Positions 2,246 through 9,238 of a stretch of 64,000 nt of DNA are shown in pieces. Positions within the stretch are counted from its first letter, which is position 1, and every line of letters starts with the position of its first letter. The notes beneath the pieces were generated by a model. It had not been told where the DNA came from, ran no database searches, and saw only the letters and a list, made by a program, of their open reading frames with translations. The stretch spans positions 124,001-188,000 of the forward strand of contig JACPUT010000002.1 in NCBI GenBank assembly GCA_016192145.1. The letters run 5' to 3'. This stretch comes from Acidobacteriota bacterium. GTDB taxonomy: Bacteria; Acidobacteriota; Holophagae; Holophagales; Holophagaceae. Made by a program: the position numbers and the translations under genes.

Positions 2246-2304
2246 TTGGCTTCCTCCGATTCGTTGTCGATGGAATGGTTCCGAGCCCCCGCTGGAGGTA
2301 CGAC

Positions 2305-4446
2305 ATGCCCGAAGGCACCCCCCGCCGCCTGACCTTGGCGGTGCCCGTCCTGGCCCTGGTGGCCCCGCTCTCCGCCCAAACGCGCCCCGACCTCCAGGCG
2401 CCCGAGGCGAAGCCCCTTGGGCTCCAGCAGCTCAGCATGGAGGAACTGCTCAACGTGAAGCTCACGGTGGCGAGCCGCACGGAAACGACCATGGCCGAGG
2501 CCCCCTCCGTGGTGTCCGTCATCACCGCTGAGGATATCCGGCGGATGGGAGCCCGGGACCTACGGGACGTGCTGCGCTCGGTGCCGGGCTTCGAGCTGGG
2601 CGTGCGGGGGCAGCTGGGCTACACGGAATTCGGATTGCGCGGCGTCATCACGGATAACACCGAGAAGATCCGGATCCTCCTGGATGGCGTGCCCGTGAAC
2701 GAGAACCTCGAGGGCAGCGGCACCATCATCTTCGGCGCGATGGCCCTGGATAACGTCCAGCAGATCGAGATCATCCGAGGCCCGGGCTCCGCCCTCTACG
2801 GCACCAACGCCTTCGTGGGCGTCATCAGCATCATCACGAAGGACGCCTCGAGCTCCGGAGCCTCCACCACCATCTCCACCAAGGGCGGGAGCTTCAACAC
2901 CAAGGAGGGCAGCGTGCTCACGGGTTGGTCCGGTCCCCGGTTCCGGGTTTCGGCCTACCTGCACTACCTGGAAACGGACGGCCCCGACTCGCCCATCGCG
3001 GCGGATTCCCTCAATTCCGTGGATTCGTTCCCCTCCTATTCCAGCTTGAACGCGGGAATCTCCCTGGCCGGAACGCCCAAGGGCCACACCTACGAATTCC
3101 GGCGCCAGCTGAGCACCCAGCTCAAGTTGGACTACCGGGGGCTCACCTTCAACGGGGTGTTCACGAACATCCACAAGGGCCCCTACCTGGGCACCTACTT
3201 GGCGGTGAACGAACACTCGGACGCCCATCCCTCCCAGGCTCAGGGCACGCTCGCCACCACCTTCCGGCCTTCCGAGGACTGGATCATCGAGCCGAAGATC
3301 TACGCGCTGCGCTACACCGCGGACAACCTCTGGAACGATGCCCCGGAGGGCTTCCGCCTCCGCCTCGACCAACCCTCGGGTCCTCCCGTCATCCTCGACT
3401 ACACCGAGGGGAGCTACCAGCTCAATCGGGCCACCCAGGCCACCCGCGGGGCCGAGGTCAAGGCGACCTGGAATGCCTCCCCGACCCAGAAGGTGATGCT
3501 GGGGAGTTCCGTGGAGGAGGAGAAGCTTTACCGGATCGAGAACTTCGCCAACGTGCCCGGCCTCGGTCCCGACGACATGGTGGAGTCTCCGCCCATCATG
3601 CGGAAGGCCCCGGTCCGCACCCTGTTTTCCGCCTTCCTCCAGGATCAATGGAATCCGACTCCCGCCCTGGGGATCACGGCGGGGCTCCGCCTCGACCGCT
3701 ACAACGACGCCGGCACGGCCCTCACACCCCGCCTGGCCGCCGTCTGGCGACCCCGTCAGGCCTTCCACCTGAAAGCCATGTACGGGGAGGCCTTCCGGGC
3801 CCCGACCTTCGTGGAGTCTTACCTCTACGCGGGGGGCGGTTTCATCCGGGGCCGGGAGGACATCCAGCCCGAGCGGATCAAGACGGGGGAATTCGAGGCC
3901 GGTCTGCGCCTGGGGGACTCCATCCTCTGGCGGGTGGTGCTCTTCGAGAACCGGATCACCAACCTCATCAAGCTGGGGGCCACCCCGTCCGGACTGGAGT
4001 ACCAGAACACCCCCGACGTCACGGTGATTCGCGGGATCGAGACGGAATGGACGGCCACCTTCACCGATTCCCTGGGGGGGTACCTCAACCTCTCCGGCCA
4101 GAGCGGCCGCAATGAGGTCACGGGGGACCGGCCCGTGGGGATGGCCCATTGGCGGGGGAACCTAGGAATCAACGCGGCCCTCCTGGAGGGGCTGAACCTC
4201 AACGCCACCCTTCACGTGGTGGGCCGCCGGGAGCGCGCCAAGGGGGATCCCCGGCCGGACTTGAAGGGATACCAGGTGCTGGACCTCGCCCTCACCTACG
4301 CCGCGGCCCGGAACCTGGACTTCAGCCTCACGGCCCACAACCTCCTGGATCGGGACCAGCGCTACGCCAGCGTCTCGACGCCCCTGCCCGGGGACTTCCC
4401 GGCCGGGGGGCGGGCCCTCCAAGCGGGCCTGCGCTGGCGATTCTAG
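2305..4446 (+). CDS. TonB-dependent outer-membrane receptor
   Basis: Outer-membrane receptor of 713 aa for TonB-driven uptake of a scarce ligand such as a siderophore, cobalamin or other chelate. It starts at the ATG directly behind a GGAGGT ribosome site; reading upstream of it runs into the preceding kinase gene. A signal peptide ends near APLSAQ. The plug domain (about 50-170) has the SVVSVITAEDIRRMGARDL pattern, the GLRG motif and PGSALYGTNAF. A beta-barrel follows and ends with an aromatic strand, LRWRF, with terminal Phe as required for Bam assembly. The plug resembles the CirA/BtuB class, but the ligand cannot be read from sequence. No tonB, exbB or ferric reductase lies nearby. Confidence 0.93.
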   Translation: MPEGTPRRLTLAVPVLALVAPLSAQTRPDLQAPEAKPLGLQQLSMEELLNVKLTVASRTETTMAEAPSVVSVITAEDIRRMGARDLRDVLRSVPGFELGVRGQLGYTEFGLRGVITDNTEKIRILLDGVPVNENLEGSGTIIFGAMALDNVQQIEIIRGPGSALYGTNAFVGVISIITKDASSSGASTTISTKGGSFNTKEGSVLTGWSGPRFRVSAYLHYLETDGPDSPIAADSLNSVDSFPSYSSLNAGISLAGTPKGHTYEFRRQLSTQLKLDYRGLTFNGVFTNIHKGPYLGTYLAVNEHSDAHPSQAQGTLATTFRPSEDWIIEPKIYALRYTADNLWNDAPEGFRLRLDQPSGPPVILDYTEGSYQLNRATQATRGAEVKATWNASPTQKVMLGSSVEEEKLYRIENFANVPGLGPDDMVESPPIMRKAPVRTLFSAFLQDQWNPTPALGITAGLRLDRYNDAGTALTPRLAAVWRPRQAFHLKAMYGEAFRAPTFVESYLYAGGGFIRGREDIQPERIKTGEFEAGLRLGDSILWRVVLFENRITNLIKLGATPSGLEYQNTPDVTVIRGIETEWTATFTDSLGGYLNLSGQSGRNEVTGDRPVGMAHWRGNLGINAALLEGLNLNATLHVVGRRERAKGDPRPDLKGYQVLDLALTYAAARNLDFSLTAHNLLDRDQRYASVSTPLPGDFPAGGRALQAGLRWRF

Positions 4447-4492: not shown

Positions 4493-5725
4493 CTAGGTGC
4501 CCGTCGTCCCCAGGTTGTAGATGGGCGCGCGCCAGCCCCGGTCGATGTCTTTGAAGACGTCGCAGAGGTACTGGTTGTCCTCCCGGTTCCTCAGGGAGAA
4601 CCGCAGGTAACCGCGCCCCTTGATGCCCGAGATGTCGATGTGGGAGGCGATGATGCCCCGTTGCTCGAAGGCCCGCTTCAACTCCTCGCCCCCCAGGTGG
4701 TGGTGCCTCACCATGAAGATGTTGGTGGAGGAGGGGATGGCGGAGAAGTTGGATAGGGACGTGAGGTGGGCAAAGACCTCCTTGCGCTTGGAGATGTTCT
4801 CCGTGCGGGACTGGGTGAGGAAGGCCTCATCCTCGAGGGCGATCAGGGCGAGATCCGCCGAGAGCTGGGTGACGGGGAAGGGGTGCCGGTGGATCTGGAT
4901 GCCCTCCAGGATGTCCGGCGAGGAACACATCAGGTAGCCGATGCGCAGGCTCGCCAGGCCATATTTCTTGGAGAAGGTGCGCAGCACCATGAGGTTCTGG
5001 TACTTGGGCAGGAAGCGCGCGGCGGAGAGCACCTCGCCCGGGGGATCCGTGTACTCCCCGAAGGCCTCGTCCACCACGACGAAGGCGTTGTAGGAGCTGG
5101 CGTAGTCCAGCAGTTCCTCGATCACCATGTCGTGGATCAGGTGGCCCGTGGGGTTGTTGGGATTGGCGATCCAGATGAGCTTGGGCCTGAACTTGTCCAC
5201 CAGCTCCTTGAAGCGGTGGGTGGTCTGGTTCGTCCACCGGAACTGATCCTCCTCCCGCAGCTCCAGGAAGTAGGGCACGGCGCCCATGCGTTCCGAGAGC
5301 GCCTCGAACAGGAAGAAGCTGGGGGTGGGCATCAAGTAGACGTCCCGGTGGTCGAGGAAGACCCGGGTGATGAGATCCAGGATGGAATCCAGGCCCGCGG
5401 CGATGATGAACCACTCGGGGGGGATGGCGTACTTTTCCGCCAGGCGTTGTTTTAGGACGGCGTGGTTGCTGTCCGGGTACTCGTTGAAGCGGGCGACCCG
5501 CTGGTCGTCCAAGCGGAGTTCGTCCAGGTACTCGCGGATCCGTGGGGAATACCCTTCGGAGTTCTCGCCCAGGTCGAAGCGGTAGATCCGGTCCAGATCG
5601 TAGAGGGCCCGCACCCGCTCGATCTCCGCCTCCATGTCCACGGATTTATCCACGTACCCCTTGACCTTCTCGAACATGGCCTGGCGGGTGGGCGAGTTGA
5701 AGAACTTATGGGTCTTGGTATGCAT
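4493..5725 (-). CDS. PLP-dependent aminotransferase, class I/II (HisC/CobD-like fold)
   Basis: Fold-type I PLP enzyme of 410 aa. The start is the ATG behind GGAGGA (reads MHTKTHKFF); longer readings add a Pro/Cys-rich stretch overlapping the upstream gene. Family features are the PNNPTGH loop, VVVDEAFGEY with the cofactor-binding Asp, and the Schiff-base lysine region TFSKKYGLASLRIGY. The spacing resembles histidinol-phosphate aminotransferase and threonine-phosphate decarboxylase, but the gene is not in a his or cob cluster. It is the last gene of a minus-strand operon behind an unrecognised 497-aa protein (34-bp gap) and a DUF917-type protein. Its amino-group substrate is probably the product of those partners (inference). 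Confidence 0.85.
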   Translation of the reverse strand: MHTKTHKFFNSPTRQAMFEKVKGYVDKSVDMEAEIERVRALYDLDRIYRFDLGENSEGYSPRIREYLDELRLDDQRVARFNEYPDSNHAVLKQRLAEKYAIPPEWFIIAAGLDSILDLITRVFLDHRDVYLMPTPSFFLFEALSERMGAVPYFLELREEDQFRWTNQTTHRFKELVDKFRPKLIWIANPNNPTGHLIHDMVIEELLDYASSYNAFVVVDEAFGEYTDPPGEVLSAARFLPKYQNLMVLRTFSKKYGLASLRIGYLMCSSPDILEGIQIHRHPFPVTQLSADLALIALEDEAFLTQSRTENISKRKEVFAHLTSLSNFSAIPSSTNIFMVRHHHLGGEELKRAFEQRGIIASHIDISGIKGRGYLRFSLRNREDNQYLCDVFKDIDRGWRAPIYNLGTTGT

Positions 5726-5759
5726 GGTCGGCGGTCCTCCACACGGGGGATGGCTGGGA

Positions 5760-7253
5760 TCAACAGGCGAGGGCGGGCATGCGTTGAGAACAGAGGCGAA
5801 CCCAGTCGGCCCCATCGGGAAGCCGGGCTTCGCGGAGCCCCTGCTCGCCCAGCACCATGCGGGCGATGCCCGGAAGCTCGAGGCCCATGGCCTCCCGGAG
5901 GCTTAAGGAGGTGAGTTGATCGAGGTCGCCAGGGCTCAATCCTCCGTGGGCGAGGACCTCCATGCCTCCGGCGCTTTGGGCCGGGCCATCCGCGTAGGTG
6001 GCGAGCAGGCCCGCGAGCCCCGCCGTGAGCAGGGCGGGCAGGGGCGGGGCCAGGCGGGCGGCCCACTCTCCGTAGCCCGTGGACGCCATGGCCCGGCTGA
6101 GCCCCAGCTGCATGGCGGCCAAATAGTCCACCTGATTGAAGCCGCCGACCTGGACGAGGCCCCGCACGAGCCCGGTGGCCAGGCTGAGGAAGGAGGTGGG
6201 GACGAGGTTTCCCCCCCGGAGGCCCTCGAGGATGGGGGCGGGTTCCAGGGCGATCCGGCGGCCGTCGGAAGCCAGGAGGTGCCCCCCCTCCGCCACCAGG
6301 GGCGACGTTCGGCGTTGATCGGTGACCTCCCAGAGCAGGGCGGATCCGCCCCCCCGCCCGGCCTCGCTCCAACAGCAGGGCACCCCATCCAGCGCTTCCA
6401 GCACGGCCCCGCGCAGGGCCGCGTCGAAGAAGAGGCGGTGGATCGGAGATCCCGGATCCTCCAGATCGCGGATCAGGAGGGGCGTCCGGATGGATTCGAA
6501 GGTGGCGTAGGCGAGGGGGGGCACGCGCCTTCGGGCCTCCGGCGTGAACCACCGCTCCCAGAGCCTCGGCGTGGCGCTCGTCACCTGCTCGCGGAAGGTG
6601 GGGCGGCCCACCACTTCGGGGGCGCGCAGGATCCCGCTCAGGGTGGCCTCCAGGGCGTGGGCCTCCCGCTCGCCCAGGTACCCCGCCGCCACCAGGGATC
6701 GGACTCGGGCCTCCGCCTTGGCGAGGTCGGCTTCGCCGAAGGGGTCGAGGAGCAGGGTCATCTGGCGCCGCTGCTTGTTGGAGAGGTCGAGGATGGGCAC
6801 GCGGAGGGGCTTGCCCTCGTGCCGGCGGGCGAGCATGAGCCCCACGGGGTAGCTGGCGTTATCCGCGGGGATGAGGGCGGAGGCCTCCACGGGCAACGCC
6901 TCCGCAGGATCCTCGCCCAGGGCCGCGATGATCATGGATTGCACCGTGAGGGGCATGCACTCCACACAGAGGTGGTTGGCGGTGTACACGAGGGGGCTCC
7001 GCGTCAGGCGCGCCCTCACCCGGGCCGCGAGCGCCTCGCCCTGGCTGGCCCTCGCGTGGGCCTCCACCTCGGCGATGTAGTCCGATCGGTCCTGCAGGGG
7101 AGGCAGGTAGGCGGAGGAGAACTCCGCGAGGAAGTGGCCGAGGCTGGCATCCCCTTCCGCGAAGAGCCGCGAGTAGACGGGCCGCACCCGGGCGATGGCG
7201 GTCATCACGGGGTCGGCGAGGGCCCGGAGCCGATCCACGGGGGCGGGGCTCAT
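5760..7253 (-). CDS. Uncharacterised 497-aa protein of the DUF917 operon
   Basis: I do not recognise this protein. It starts at the ATG of an ATGA overlap with the DUF917 gene upstream, so translation of the two is probably coupled. It looks soluble, with no signal peptide or membrane helix. Likely active-site stretches are VYTANHLCVECMPL (residues 89-102), NASYPVG (132-138), ILDLSNKQRRQM (154-165) and a Gly-rich block NLVPTSFLSLATGL followed by GGFNQVDYLAAMQ. Tight packing with a hydantoinase-like DUF917 protein and an aminotransferase suggests an enzyme of small-molecule metabolism. Composition matches the neighbours, so there is no sign of recent transfer. Confidence 0.75.
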   Translation of the reverse strand: MSPAPVDRLRALADPVMTAIARVRPVYSRLFAEGDASLGHFLAEFSSAYLPPLQDRSDYIAEVEAHARASQGEALAARVRARLTRSPLVYTANHLCVECMPLTVQSMIIAALGEDPAEALPVEASALIPADNASYPVGLMLARRHEGKPLRVPILDLSNKQRRQMTLLLDPFGEADLAKAEARVRSLVAAGYLGEREAHALEATLSGILRAPEVVGRPTFREQVTSATPRLWERWFTPEARRRVPPLAYATFESIRTPLLIRDLEDPGSPIHRLFFDAALRGAVLEALDGVPCCWSEAGRGGGSALLWEVTDQRRTSPLVAEGGHLLASDGRRIALEPAPILEGLRGGNLVPTSFLSLATGLVRGLVQVGGFNQVDYLAAMQLGLSRAMASTGYGEWAARLAPPLPALLTAGLAGLLATYADGPAQSAGGMEVLAHGGLSPGDLDQLTSLSLREAMGLELPGIARMVLGEQGLREARLPDGADWVRLCSQRMPALAC

Positions 7254-8326
7254 GCCACGGCCGGAGGCGGGGCCGGGAAGAGGGCGCGCCCCCGCGGCGT
7301 ATTCCACACCTCGGCGCAGGGCAGGTGGAGGACGCTGAGGGCCTGGCCCACCGCCAAGGCGTTCTCGAAGCCGTGGCCATAGGTGACCTTGCCGAGCCCC
7401 GAATCGGAGTCCACGACGCAGATGAGATCGGGGCATTGGATGTCCAAGGCCCCGTTCCGCCAGGCCCACATGAATTCGTTTTGGAGGCCCACGCGATAGC
7501 GCTCTCCGGCGAAGGCCCCCGTGCCCTCAAGCTCCACGTGGCCCCGGAAGAAACCCCCTTCGAGCCGAGTCTCCGCGAGGGTCACGATCCCCTCGAAGGC
7601 CACGCGGCCGCCCCCCTTCGCGGCGAGGATCCCCGCGGGCCGTGTCCCGGGCCCGAGCAGGGCCCCCAGTTCCAGGCAGCGGCTCAGGGTGCGCGGAATG
7701 AGGGCCTCGCGCATCCGGGCGCCCGTCGCGGGGAAACCCGTCAGGCACACCAGGCCCCCGCTGCAGGTGGCCAGGGCCCGGCACAGGGCCTCACCCCGCG
7801 CCGCGTTCGCGACGCGCGTGGCGAGGACCAGATCCCCCTGGAAGGTGGCACCCACGAAGGGGGCGAGGGGAATGTCGAAGAGGGCGAGGGTCGTCTGATC
7901 CAACTCGGGCACGGCCCGCCCCGCGCAATCCCCATCCACCACGGGCACCCCGAGGTGGGCCGCGAGCCGGATCGCCTCCAGGGTGTTCTGGGGGCCCAAT
8001 TCCAAGGGGTACACGAACCCGATGGGCCTTTTCAGATAGGCGGCGAGGGCCTTAGCTGCGGGCACGGAGGGTGGCTCGGGGGCGAGGGCTTCCAATCGTT
8101 CCACCTCTGCGTTGGTGAGGCCGCCACCCGCCATGGCCGTGGAGATTCCCAGGGCGTCCGCGGGCAATTGATCGGGGTCGATGAGATCCACCGGGCGCCC
8201 TTCGGCCACGAGGTCCTCCACGATGGCCCGCCCACGGGAATAGGAACCCCCGCCCCCCGTGCCCAGGACGGAGGCTCCCCTCAATAGTTGTTTCAAGGCC
8301 TCTCGCTCCAGGCGGAGGCCCGTCAT
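7250..8326 (-). CDS. DUF917 family protein (hydantoinase / thiohydantoin desulfurase-like)
   Basis: Protein of 358 aa, started at MTGLRLERE, the first start with a plausible ribosome site (AGAGGCGG). The N-terminal VLGTGGGGSYSRG glycine loop, the MAGGGLTN segment and the central VPVVDGDCAGRAVPELDQ block are typical of DUF917 proteins. These occur beside hydantoinases and include S-methylthiohydantoin desulfurases. The C-terminal ICVVDSDSGLGKVTYG completes the fold. No HyuA/HyuB subunits are present here. It is the first gene of a three-gene operon and overlaps the next gene by ATGA. The reaction is unknown; hydrolysis or desulfurisation of a cyclic amide is an inference from family context only. 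Confidence 0.75.
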   Translation of the reverse strand: MTGLRLEREALKQLLRGASVLGTGGGGSYSRGRAIVEDLVAEGRPVDLIDPDQLPADALGISTAMAGGGLTNAEVERLEALAPEPPSVPAAKALAAYLKRPIGFVYPLELGPQNTLEAIRLAAHLGVPVVDGDCAGRAVPELDQTTLALFDIPLAPFVGATFQGDLVLATRVANAARGEALCRALATCSGGLVCLTGFPATGARMREALIPRTLSRCLELGALLGPGTRPAGILAAKGGGRVAFEGIVTLAETRLEGGFFRGHVELEGTGAFAGERYRVGLQNEFMWAWRNGALDIQCPDLICVVDSDSGLGKVTYGHGFENALAVGQALSVLHLPCAEVWNTPRGRALFPAPPPAVA

Positions 8327-8671
8327 CGGTCCGCCTCTGGGAGAAGGGTCGCTCCCCCCCGTCCCCAGCGAATCCGGCTTCGAGCTACCATCGCGATCTC
8401 CGAGCATGGGTCAAGTCGAATCCCCTTCGGTTCCTTGGCCACGCTTCTCAAGGAGCGGCTCCCACGGGTTACTTGGACAAGCTCCTAGCTTCGGCGGCTG
8501 CGCGGCGGAAACCCAAGGGATCCTTGGCGGAACACGGCGTAGCTTCGTGAGTTGATGATTCCGACCATACCTCGTCCCGGGGCCCCGGAGGCAGCGGATC
8601 TTTCCTACATTTTTCCATAAGGAATTCTCACAAAACCCTGTCGACCGAAGCACCCTGGCACGCCTCGGGAG
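8327..8671. other. Divergent intergenic region
   Basis: This is 345 bp between the DUF917 operon (minus) and the small exporter (plus). I see no convincing gene. An AT-rich patch near 8604-8640 is the best place for promoters. Around 8465-8492 the sequence resembles the hairpin at 4451-4490 (shared CTTGGACA...CTCCTAG), which suggests a repeated motif. Confidence 0.5.
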
Positions 8672-9238
8672 GTGAGGTCTGGGCGGGTAATATGGAGCAT
8701 GCTCCCCGTGCTCCTGCTCTTTCTGCTTCCCGTGGGGGGCGGCATTCCGGCCGGGGTATTGCTGGCCCAATCGAAGGGCATGGGCTGGCCCGTGGTGGCG
8801 GGGCTCTACCTGGTGTCGGACGTGATGCTGGCCCTGACCTTCGAGCCCCTGCTGCGCCTTCTCGTAAGGCTCGCCGCGAAGGTCCCCTTCCTGGCCCGAT
8901 TCGGTGAGGCCATGAAGGTGGCGATGGCCCGCGGCGCGGCCTCGTTCGGAGGCACCGGCGCAGGGCCTTTCACCCTTCTCCTGATCTCATTCGGCGTGGA
9001 TCCCATGACGGGCCGCTCGGCGGCCCTCGCCGCGGGCCATGGTTTCCTGATCGGCTGGGCCTTCGCCATCGCCGGCGACATGCTCTATTACGCCGTCCTC
9101 GCGATCACGACCTTGCGCTTGAATACCTATTTCCGGGATCCGAACACGACGGTCTGGGTGGTGCTGGGGGCGATGATCGTGGTGCCCATGGTGGTGCGGC
9201 GGGTTTGGGCCAAACCGACGGCCGAGGCCCTGGGGTGA
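8672..9238 (+). CDS. Small multidrug-export-type membrane protein
   Basis: Polytopic inner-membrane protein of 188 aa if the GTG at 8672 is used. An ATG at 8699 (MLPVLLLF) would give 179 aa and an N-terminus that is immediately hydrophobic. Four or five membrane helices are visible, with a central GTGAGPFTLLLISFGVDP segment and a C-terminal helix followed by a short basic tail. The layout resembles the putative small multidrug export family (COG2426), which is poorly characterised. It stands alone between a divergent operon and a short unknown frame, so context adds nothing about substrate. Confidence 0.6.
   Translation: MRSGRVIWSMLPVLLLFLLPVGGGIPAGVLLAQSKGMGWPVVAGLYLVSDVMLALTFEPLLRLLVRLAAKVPFLARFGEAMKVAMARGAASFGGTGAGPFTLLLISFGVDPMTGRSAALAAGHGFLIGWAFAIAGDMLYYAVLAITTLRLNTYFRDPNTTVWVVLGAMIVVPMVVRRVWAKPTAEALG

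Follow-up and report, generated by a model that had tools for sequence, protein, structure and literature searches.

What does the middle gene of a small three-gene operon encode, and which kind of pathway does the operon serve? The operon lies in a stretch of 64,000 nucleotides from an Acidobacteriota bacterium (contig JACPUT010000002.1, positions 124,001 to 188,000), which as a whole is called the window in the following. Its genes occupy one strand (minus, 8326-4493) and encode a DUF917 protein, a protein of 497 aa, here termed X, and an aminotransferase. The initial annotation had described this order, regarded the middle protein as belonging to no known family and suggested a pathway for a small metabolite. 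The arrangement was confirmed: the start codon of X lies inside a 4-bp ATGA overlap with the DUF917 gene, and X is followed by the aminotransferase gene after 34 bp. The proposed kind of pathway is plausible. On balance, we favour the view that X is an ATP-dependent ligase of amino-acid-like substrates serving the synthesis of a small metabolite, with roles of the two neighbours as outlined below. Its family is sparse, has no name and turns up repeatedly in small-molecule gene clusters of unrelated bacteria, and X is probably a kind of amino-acid ligase that has been overlooked.

Predicted fold of X

A profile search with X (5760-7253, minus strand), as the initial annotation had advised, gave no match in Pfam or NCBIfam, and none was found among PDB sequences; searches of the latter with X profile hidden Markov models yielded nothing meaningful. 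The tested relatives of X matched no Pfam-A family, and no relatives were present in viral contigs. An identity as IucA/IucC siderophore synthetase was dropped, there being no Pfam match.

The advised comparison of a predicted structure with the PDB pointed to BshC, the enzyme that adds cysteine to glucosaminyl-malate in bacillithiol synthesis. An AlphaFold model of X calculated from 12 family members reached a predicted local distance difference test (pLDDT) value of 87.9 and a predicted template modelling (pTM) score of 0.88; a single-sequence model (pLDDT 35) was not used. With Foldseek, the sole PDB match below 0.001 was BshC of B. subtilis (4wbd, E 8.3e-6, probability 1.00), and a search of the viral structures in BFVD gave nothing below E 0.17. 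VIA-align superposed the model on BshC with a Z of 18.2 (368 residues aligned, 3.9 Å root mean square deviation), well over the background stated by this program. Class I lysyl-tRNA synthetase (LysRS; 1irx) was second with a Z of 13.5 over 277 residues, after which the values dropped to 7.4 or less (arginyl-tRNA synthetase, MshC with 6.7, tyrosyl-tRNA synthetases). In the model, both the predicted BshC fold and a predicted HUP catalytic core are recognisable. A fold of the type of BshC and the class I aminoacyl-tRNA synthetases (aaRS) is thereby well supported for X. The earlier statement on its family thus stands as far as named families are concerned, but the protein can be placed by its predicted fold and its relatives.

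Profile comparison of X with eight BshC-like proteins by hhalign gave a score of 34.6, which was reached by none of 60 column shuffles (maximum 21.1; reversed 22.9). The core of this alignment is the F-x-W ... GRR-x-PL region. In the full maximum-accuracy (MAC) alignment the motifs are in register, TANHxG lying on TGQQxG and GGYYQxxYLP on GGPAExAYF, a placement which outside the core is of low confidence on its own. Placements from a global hhalign alignment of X and BshC proved useless. Besides X, the host and its family relatives possess a BshC-like protein of their own (PF10079), which is divergent and shortened and in the host is encoded on contig C9 (120501-121256). A PF10079 search of six X-carrying genomes found nothing.

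Conserved residues

The motifs VYTANHL, NASYPVG and GGFNQVDY, to which the initial annotation had drawn attention, are present at residues 89, 132 and 370, respectively. In class I synthetases, the HIGH loop after the first strand is nucleotide-binding. Residues 88-96 of X (LVYTANHLC; 6966-6992, minus strand) cover strand 1 and the next loop (predicted strand 88-92, predicted helix 101-112) and stand at the place of this HIGH motif and of TGQQxG in BshC, with N93 and H94 right after the first strand of the predicted fold. H94 is kept in all 26 X-family sequences, which come from several phyla, and N93 in all 14 members of the core clade. H-x-G is found at the right loop in 12 of these 14; the fourth residue is not H or N, and in the window copy the G is replaced by C.

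The second motif, GGxxQxxY, is located at residues 370-381 (GGFNQVDYLAAM; 6111-6146, minus strand) according to conservation and the alignment to GGPAExAYF of BshC. G370, G371 and Y377 occur in 26 of 26 sequences and Q374 in 22 of them; W308 is invariant as well (26/26). We take GGxxQ of X to resemble the GGSDQ motif of tyrosyl-tRNA synthetase (TyrRS), which contacts the adenylate. No KMSKS motif was recognised in X, nor did the Pfam and NCBIfam profile libraries reveal an anticodon-binding domain.

Distribution and gene neighbourhood of X relatives

A convincing homologue of X was found in none of 59 other close relatives, and X is absent from 394 of 395 other genomes of the phylum, the remaining one giving a marginal partial hit. 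Relatives with 23-33% identity occur in actinomycetes, gammaproteobacterial metagenome-assembled genomes, Desulfovibrionaceae and Clostridia, those in other Pseudomonadota being detectable by profile only. Altogether, at least four other phyla contain X relatives, most of which lie in clusters that are biosynthesis-like or rich in transport genes. A tblastn search of plasmids detected near-full-length relatives in Streptomyces and partial ones in Nitratidesulfovibrio vulgaris and S. clavuligerus; a contig scan with a three-row alignment added 12 loci (Gammaproteobacteria, Streptosporangiaceae, Streptomyces, Desulfovibrio, Clostridia). With a 16-row profile, relatives were detected in a further 10 genomes out of 348 from Pseudomonadota and in a single small genome from actinobacteria (E 1e-11 to 1e-19). 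In the phyla of Desulfovibrio and Clostridia, with about 200 genomes searched for each, none turned up beyond the seeds. The window X forms a long branch of its own within the core clade of 14 members, where its exact position is unsure. Because codon usage shows no mark of recent import on the operon genes, the scattered distribution is best read as the result of old transfer or multiple loss.

Actinobacterial X loci contain genes for a TauD-type dioxygenase, a diaminopimelate (DAP)-epimerase-like protein, a cupin, a methyltransferase, a pyridoxal phosphate (PLP) decarboxylase, a short-chain dehydrogenase/reductase, an amidinotransferase, a zinc-dependent dehydrogenase, an ATP-grasp L-amino-acid ligase, a major facilitator superfamily (MFS) transporter and GNAT ligases resembling Fem proteins and lysylphosphatidylglycerol (LPG) synthase, in a set that varies between loci. 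At gammaproteobacterial loci X is accompanied by a Cache histidine kinase, an EAL response regulator, a DAP-epimerase-like protein, a fusion of a sensor-like domain with an MFS protein and two ABC_sub_bind proteins, and in Desulfovibrionaceae by an ABC_sub_bind protein and the MFS fusion. An MFS-type gene is situated directly upstream of X at four loci of other Pseudomonadota. On two clostridial contigs (L015:8750-11287, L019:5557-8076) an alanine racemase is fused in front of X; the racemase of the former is complete (Ala_racemase_N and _C), and the latter fusion is 65% identical over the full length. The theme common to the X loci is amino-acid chemistry, often racemisation, plus export or sensing.

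Some further features of these loci were observed. Actinobacterial clusters of about ten genes around X (L013, L014, L020 and L004, L018) contain an amidinotransferase together with the Fem/LPG-synthase-like GNAT ligases, that of L020 also a D-Ala-D-Ala dipeptidase. The MFS proteins beside X at nine loci (L009-L012, L016, L017, L005, L015, L019) carry an N-terminal extension of 400-560 residues with no Pfam match, which by eye looks like a membrane-anchored, periplasmic Cache-type sensor between transmembrane helices; a methyltransferase identity of this part was rejected, as profile comparison did not link it with the methyltransferase-like gene. The X gene in the assembly of the Olavius algarvensis Gamma 3 symbiont is split into two overlapping frames (L016:10019-11555), reflecting disruption or an assembly error. 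The S. clavuligerus plasmid encodes a shortened relative (L007:14740-15834) beside hypE, hypF, DUF3865, arginase-family and ATP-grasp genes. A second group of relatives (about 460 aa; L042-L045, L047) is located between GNAT-like and adenylate/guanylate cyclase-TPR genes; an MFS gene is missing there.

The flanking genes and the operon

The first gene (7250-8326, minus strand) encodes a protein of 358 aa of the DUF917 / S-methyl thiohydantoin desulfurase-like (S-Me-THD-like) type with 2o3i as remote solved relative. Its start is ambiguous, an alternative in-frame ATG being present at 8407; with the shorter reading, the domain starts at residue 10. The protein shares both domains of the S-methyl thiohydantoin desulfurases, PF06032 in the N-terminal part (E 1.8e-34, 119.5 bits) and PF20906 in the C-terminal part (E 2.6e-33, 115.4 bits; cut-off 27 in both cases). 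Unlike these enzymes, it scores only 67.7 bits against NF058532 (S-methyl thiohydantoin desulfurase; equivalog cut-off 450), is far from both curated desulfurases and has no hydantoinase neighbour. The label hydantoinase-like given to it earlier is accordingly loose. Its nearest plasmid relatives (about 32% identity) adjoin ABC transporters or hydantoinase genes, neither of which occurs in the window, and among 100 genomes searched only its own contains a DUF917 homologue.

The third gene (4493-5725, minus strand) encodes a HisC-like fold-type I PLP aminotransferase of 410 aa. It matches PF00155 (E 8.7e-44), and HisC (TIGR01141) is its best-matching family, with 211.2 bits below the equivalog cut-off of 276.55. 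The motif NPNNPTG at 188 and FSKKYG with the probable PLP lysine K253 are retained. The best copies in 100 related genomes are at most 32% identical.

Third-position G+C is high (0.86, 0.90 and 0.93 for the genes in operon order) and alike in neighbouring genes; G+C by codon position supports all three being genes of normal composition for the host genome. Since neither a sigma-70-like promoter nor a minus-strand terminator was found for the operon, it is the spacing of the genes that suggests their co-transcription. A gene for a small membrane protein (8672-9238) lies upstream in divergent orientation. Downstream, a convergent gene for a TonB-dependent receptor (2260-4446, plus strand) ends 46 bp from the operon. 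This adjacency would fit a metallophore role of the operon, but it may be due to chance because the host genome contains 31 TonB-receptor-like matches. The receptor has no clear orthologue in close relatives.

Proposed function and alternative explanations

The analysis shows the layout of the genes, a confidently predicted fold, conserved motifs and the recurrence of the family next to racemases, exporters and other ligases. From the fold, the motifs and the neighbourhood of its relatives we infer that X is most likely a ligase; catalysis, adenylation, substrate, amine acceptor, the sequence of the steps and a joint action of the three genes belong to the inferred part. X would use ATP to activate an amino acid or a similar acid at its carboxyl group, in the NHxG loop behind strand 1, and pass the activated acid to the amine of a small molecule, which would result in an amide-linked metabolite. 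The HisC-like aminotransferase may make or interconvert the building block, an amino or keto acid. The DUF917 protein might open a cyclic (hydantoin-like) intermediate by hydrolysis or have the product as its substrate; for these two, family names and adjacency suggest the roles. The proximity of X relatives to racemases or epimerases, MFS exporters, ATP-grasp and Fem-type ligases is in favour of a ligase.

Several observations weigh against this interpretation. X has no significant sequence match to PF10079 or to PDB chains, and the hhalign probability for X against BshC alone is low (12%). The combination of TGQQ and an acidic SEDHD-like motif was not found in X, where TANH stands in the first place and the second motif is free of acids; the conserved acids of BshC (D155, D157, E160) have no counterpart, so the chemistry of X may differ or be lost, and we therefore do not claim an identical mechanism. 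At near-constant positions of the core clade the window X deviates (G96 to C, F100 to M, T304 to S). Its operon has no adjacent exporter or racemase, and neither partner gene has a homologue next to X at any of 29 other X loci. The last result, together with the absence of X from related genomes and the occurrence of DUF917 in one genome of 100, speaks against the triad as a conserved module. The initial annotation had itself named homologues whose three genes are never neighbours as a refutation, and for the triad this is the outcome; a pathway role of X is left untouched by it.

The main rival is a tRNA-dependent role: X might charge tRNA or use aminoacyl-tRNA, as cyclodipeptide synthases (CDPSs) and SbzA do, and deliver the amino acid either straight to a small molecule or to a transferase of the Fem/GNAT type. 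The second-best fold match, class I LysRS, is consistent with this, as are the actinobacterial clusters pairing X with Fem-like and LPG-synthase-like GNAT ligases. The best match, however, is BshC, which is tRNA-independent, and X shows no anticodon-binding domain recognisable by the profile libraries. Ligases of the GNAT type do use aminoacyl-tRNA in known pathways (PMC12945691; PMC2922099), but such a partner is absent from the window operon and from the examined gammaproteobacterial and clostridial genes, and we regard this role as unlikely. The loss of the acidic motif could also mean that X has kept the fold and not the catalysis. It would then be involved in the transport of metabolites as a protein that binds, senses or serves as a scaffold, linked to the genes for Cache-MFS proteins, histidine kinases and ABC substrate-binding proteins that adjoin it in Gammaproteobacteria; the gammaproteobacterial, clostridial and Desulfovibrio loci are indeed rich in sensors and binding proteins. 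Yet the invariance of H94, W308, the GG pair and Y377 across 26 sequences of several phyla is typical of an active site, the actinobacterial loci are plain biosynthetic clusters, and the clostridial X is fused to an enzyme, the alanine racemase, all of which makes a non-catalytic protein quite improbable.

It is also rather unlikely that X lies by chance between unrelated DUF917 and aminotransferase genes sharing no pathway. The partners occur at no other X locus, and both DUF917 and X are missing from close relatives; on the other hand, the start/stop overlap, the short gap and the common strand argue against chance, and each gene being absent from related genomes, or distant to the copies there, fits arrival as one cassette.

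Returning to the ligase, X represents a new family whose fold is of a known kind and whose function is likely that of a ligase. More tentatively, X may found a separate, scattered and so far undescribed family of standalone amide ligases derived from class I aaRS and sister to BshC. In five phyla or more, these would build a new class of exported metabolites from amino acids (possibly including D-amino acids), with a distinct sub-pathway in the DUF917-containing operon of the Acidobacteriota. Amide ligases define natural-product pathways, and genome mining sees only ligases for which models exist. Since X is matched by none of the models in Pfam-A and NCBIfam, and its tested relatives by none in Pfam-A, clusters built around X may be overlooked. 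If the proposed reaction holds true, a set of actinobacterial, proteobacterial and clostridial clusters becomes searchable. BshC would then no longer be a one-off ligase but belong, as one branch, to a wider group of ligases that resemble tRNA synthetases and serve the synthesis of small molecules.

Comparison with known systems

Class I synthetase-like enzymes in natural-product synthesis have precedents (PMC12945691; PMC2922099). Reports of BshC-like proteins in biosynthetic clusters were not found in a literature search whose coverage mostly excludes subscription journals, and the papers searched contain no description of an X-type family, which does not disprove that one exists. In Aravind et al. 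2010 (PMC2922099), paralogous systems of methionyl-tRNA synthetase (MetRS) and cupin as well as CDPSs are predicted or described, in operons carrying cupins, ATP-grasp or Fem ligases. They share with X the principle of a class I aaRS-like domain recruited for peptide-derived metabolites, but are different families, and X is not described in the parts of this source that were covered.

MshC, the cysteine ligase of mycothiol synthesis, is a HUP-fold amide ligase of small molecules, as X is predicted to be, its structural match being weak (see above). MshC is a paralogue of cysteinyl-tRNA synthetase (CysRS) by sequence (PMC2922099), whereas between X and the aaRS no sequence match is detectable. 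With the class I aaRS (LysRS-I, ArgRS, TyrRS) X shares a predicted HUP core, and most members of its core clade have an H-x-G in the loop after strand 1. In contrast to them, the fourth residue of HIGH is V or I in X, neither KMSKS nor an anticodon-binding domain is recognised, and the gene sits in metabolite operons. BshC (PF10079; 4wbd) differs from X by an identity of only about 10%, by a PF10079 profile that does not match X, by TGQQ in place of TANH and by its SEDHD-type motif, which is missing in X. The two agree, however, in the overall predicted fold over the aligned residues and, in the full-length profile alignment, in the order of strand-1 loop, F-x-W...GRR-x-PL strand region and GG..Y.

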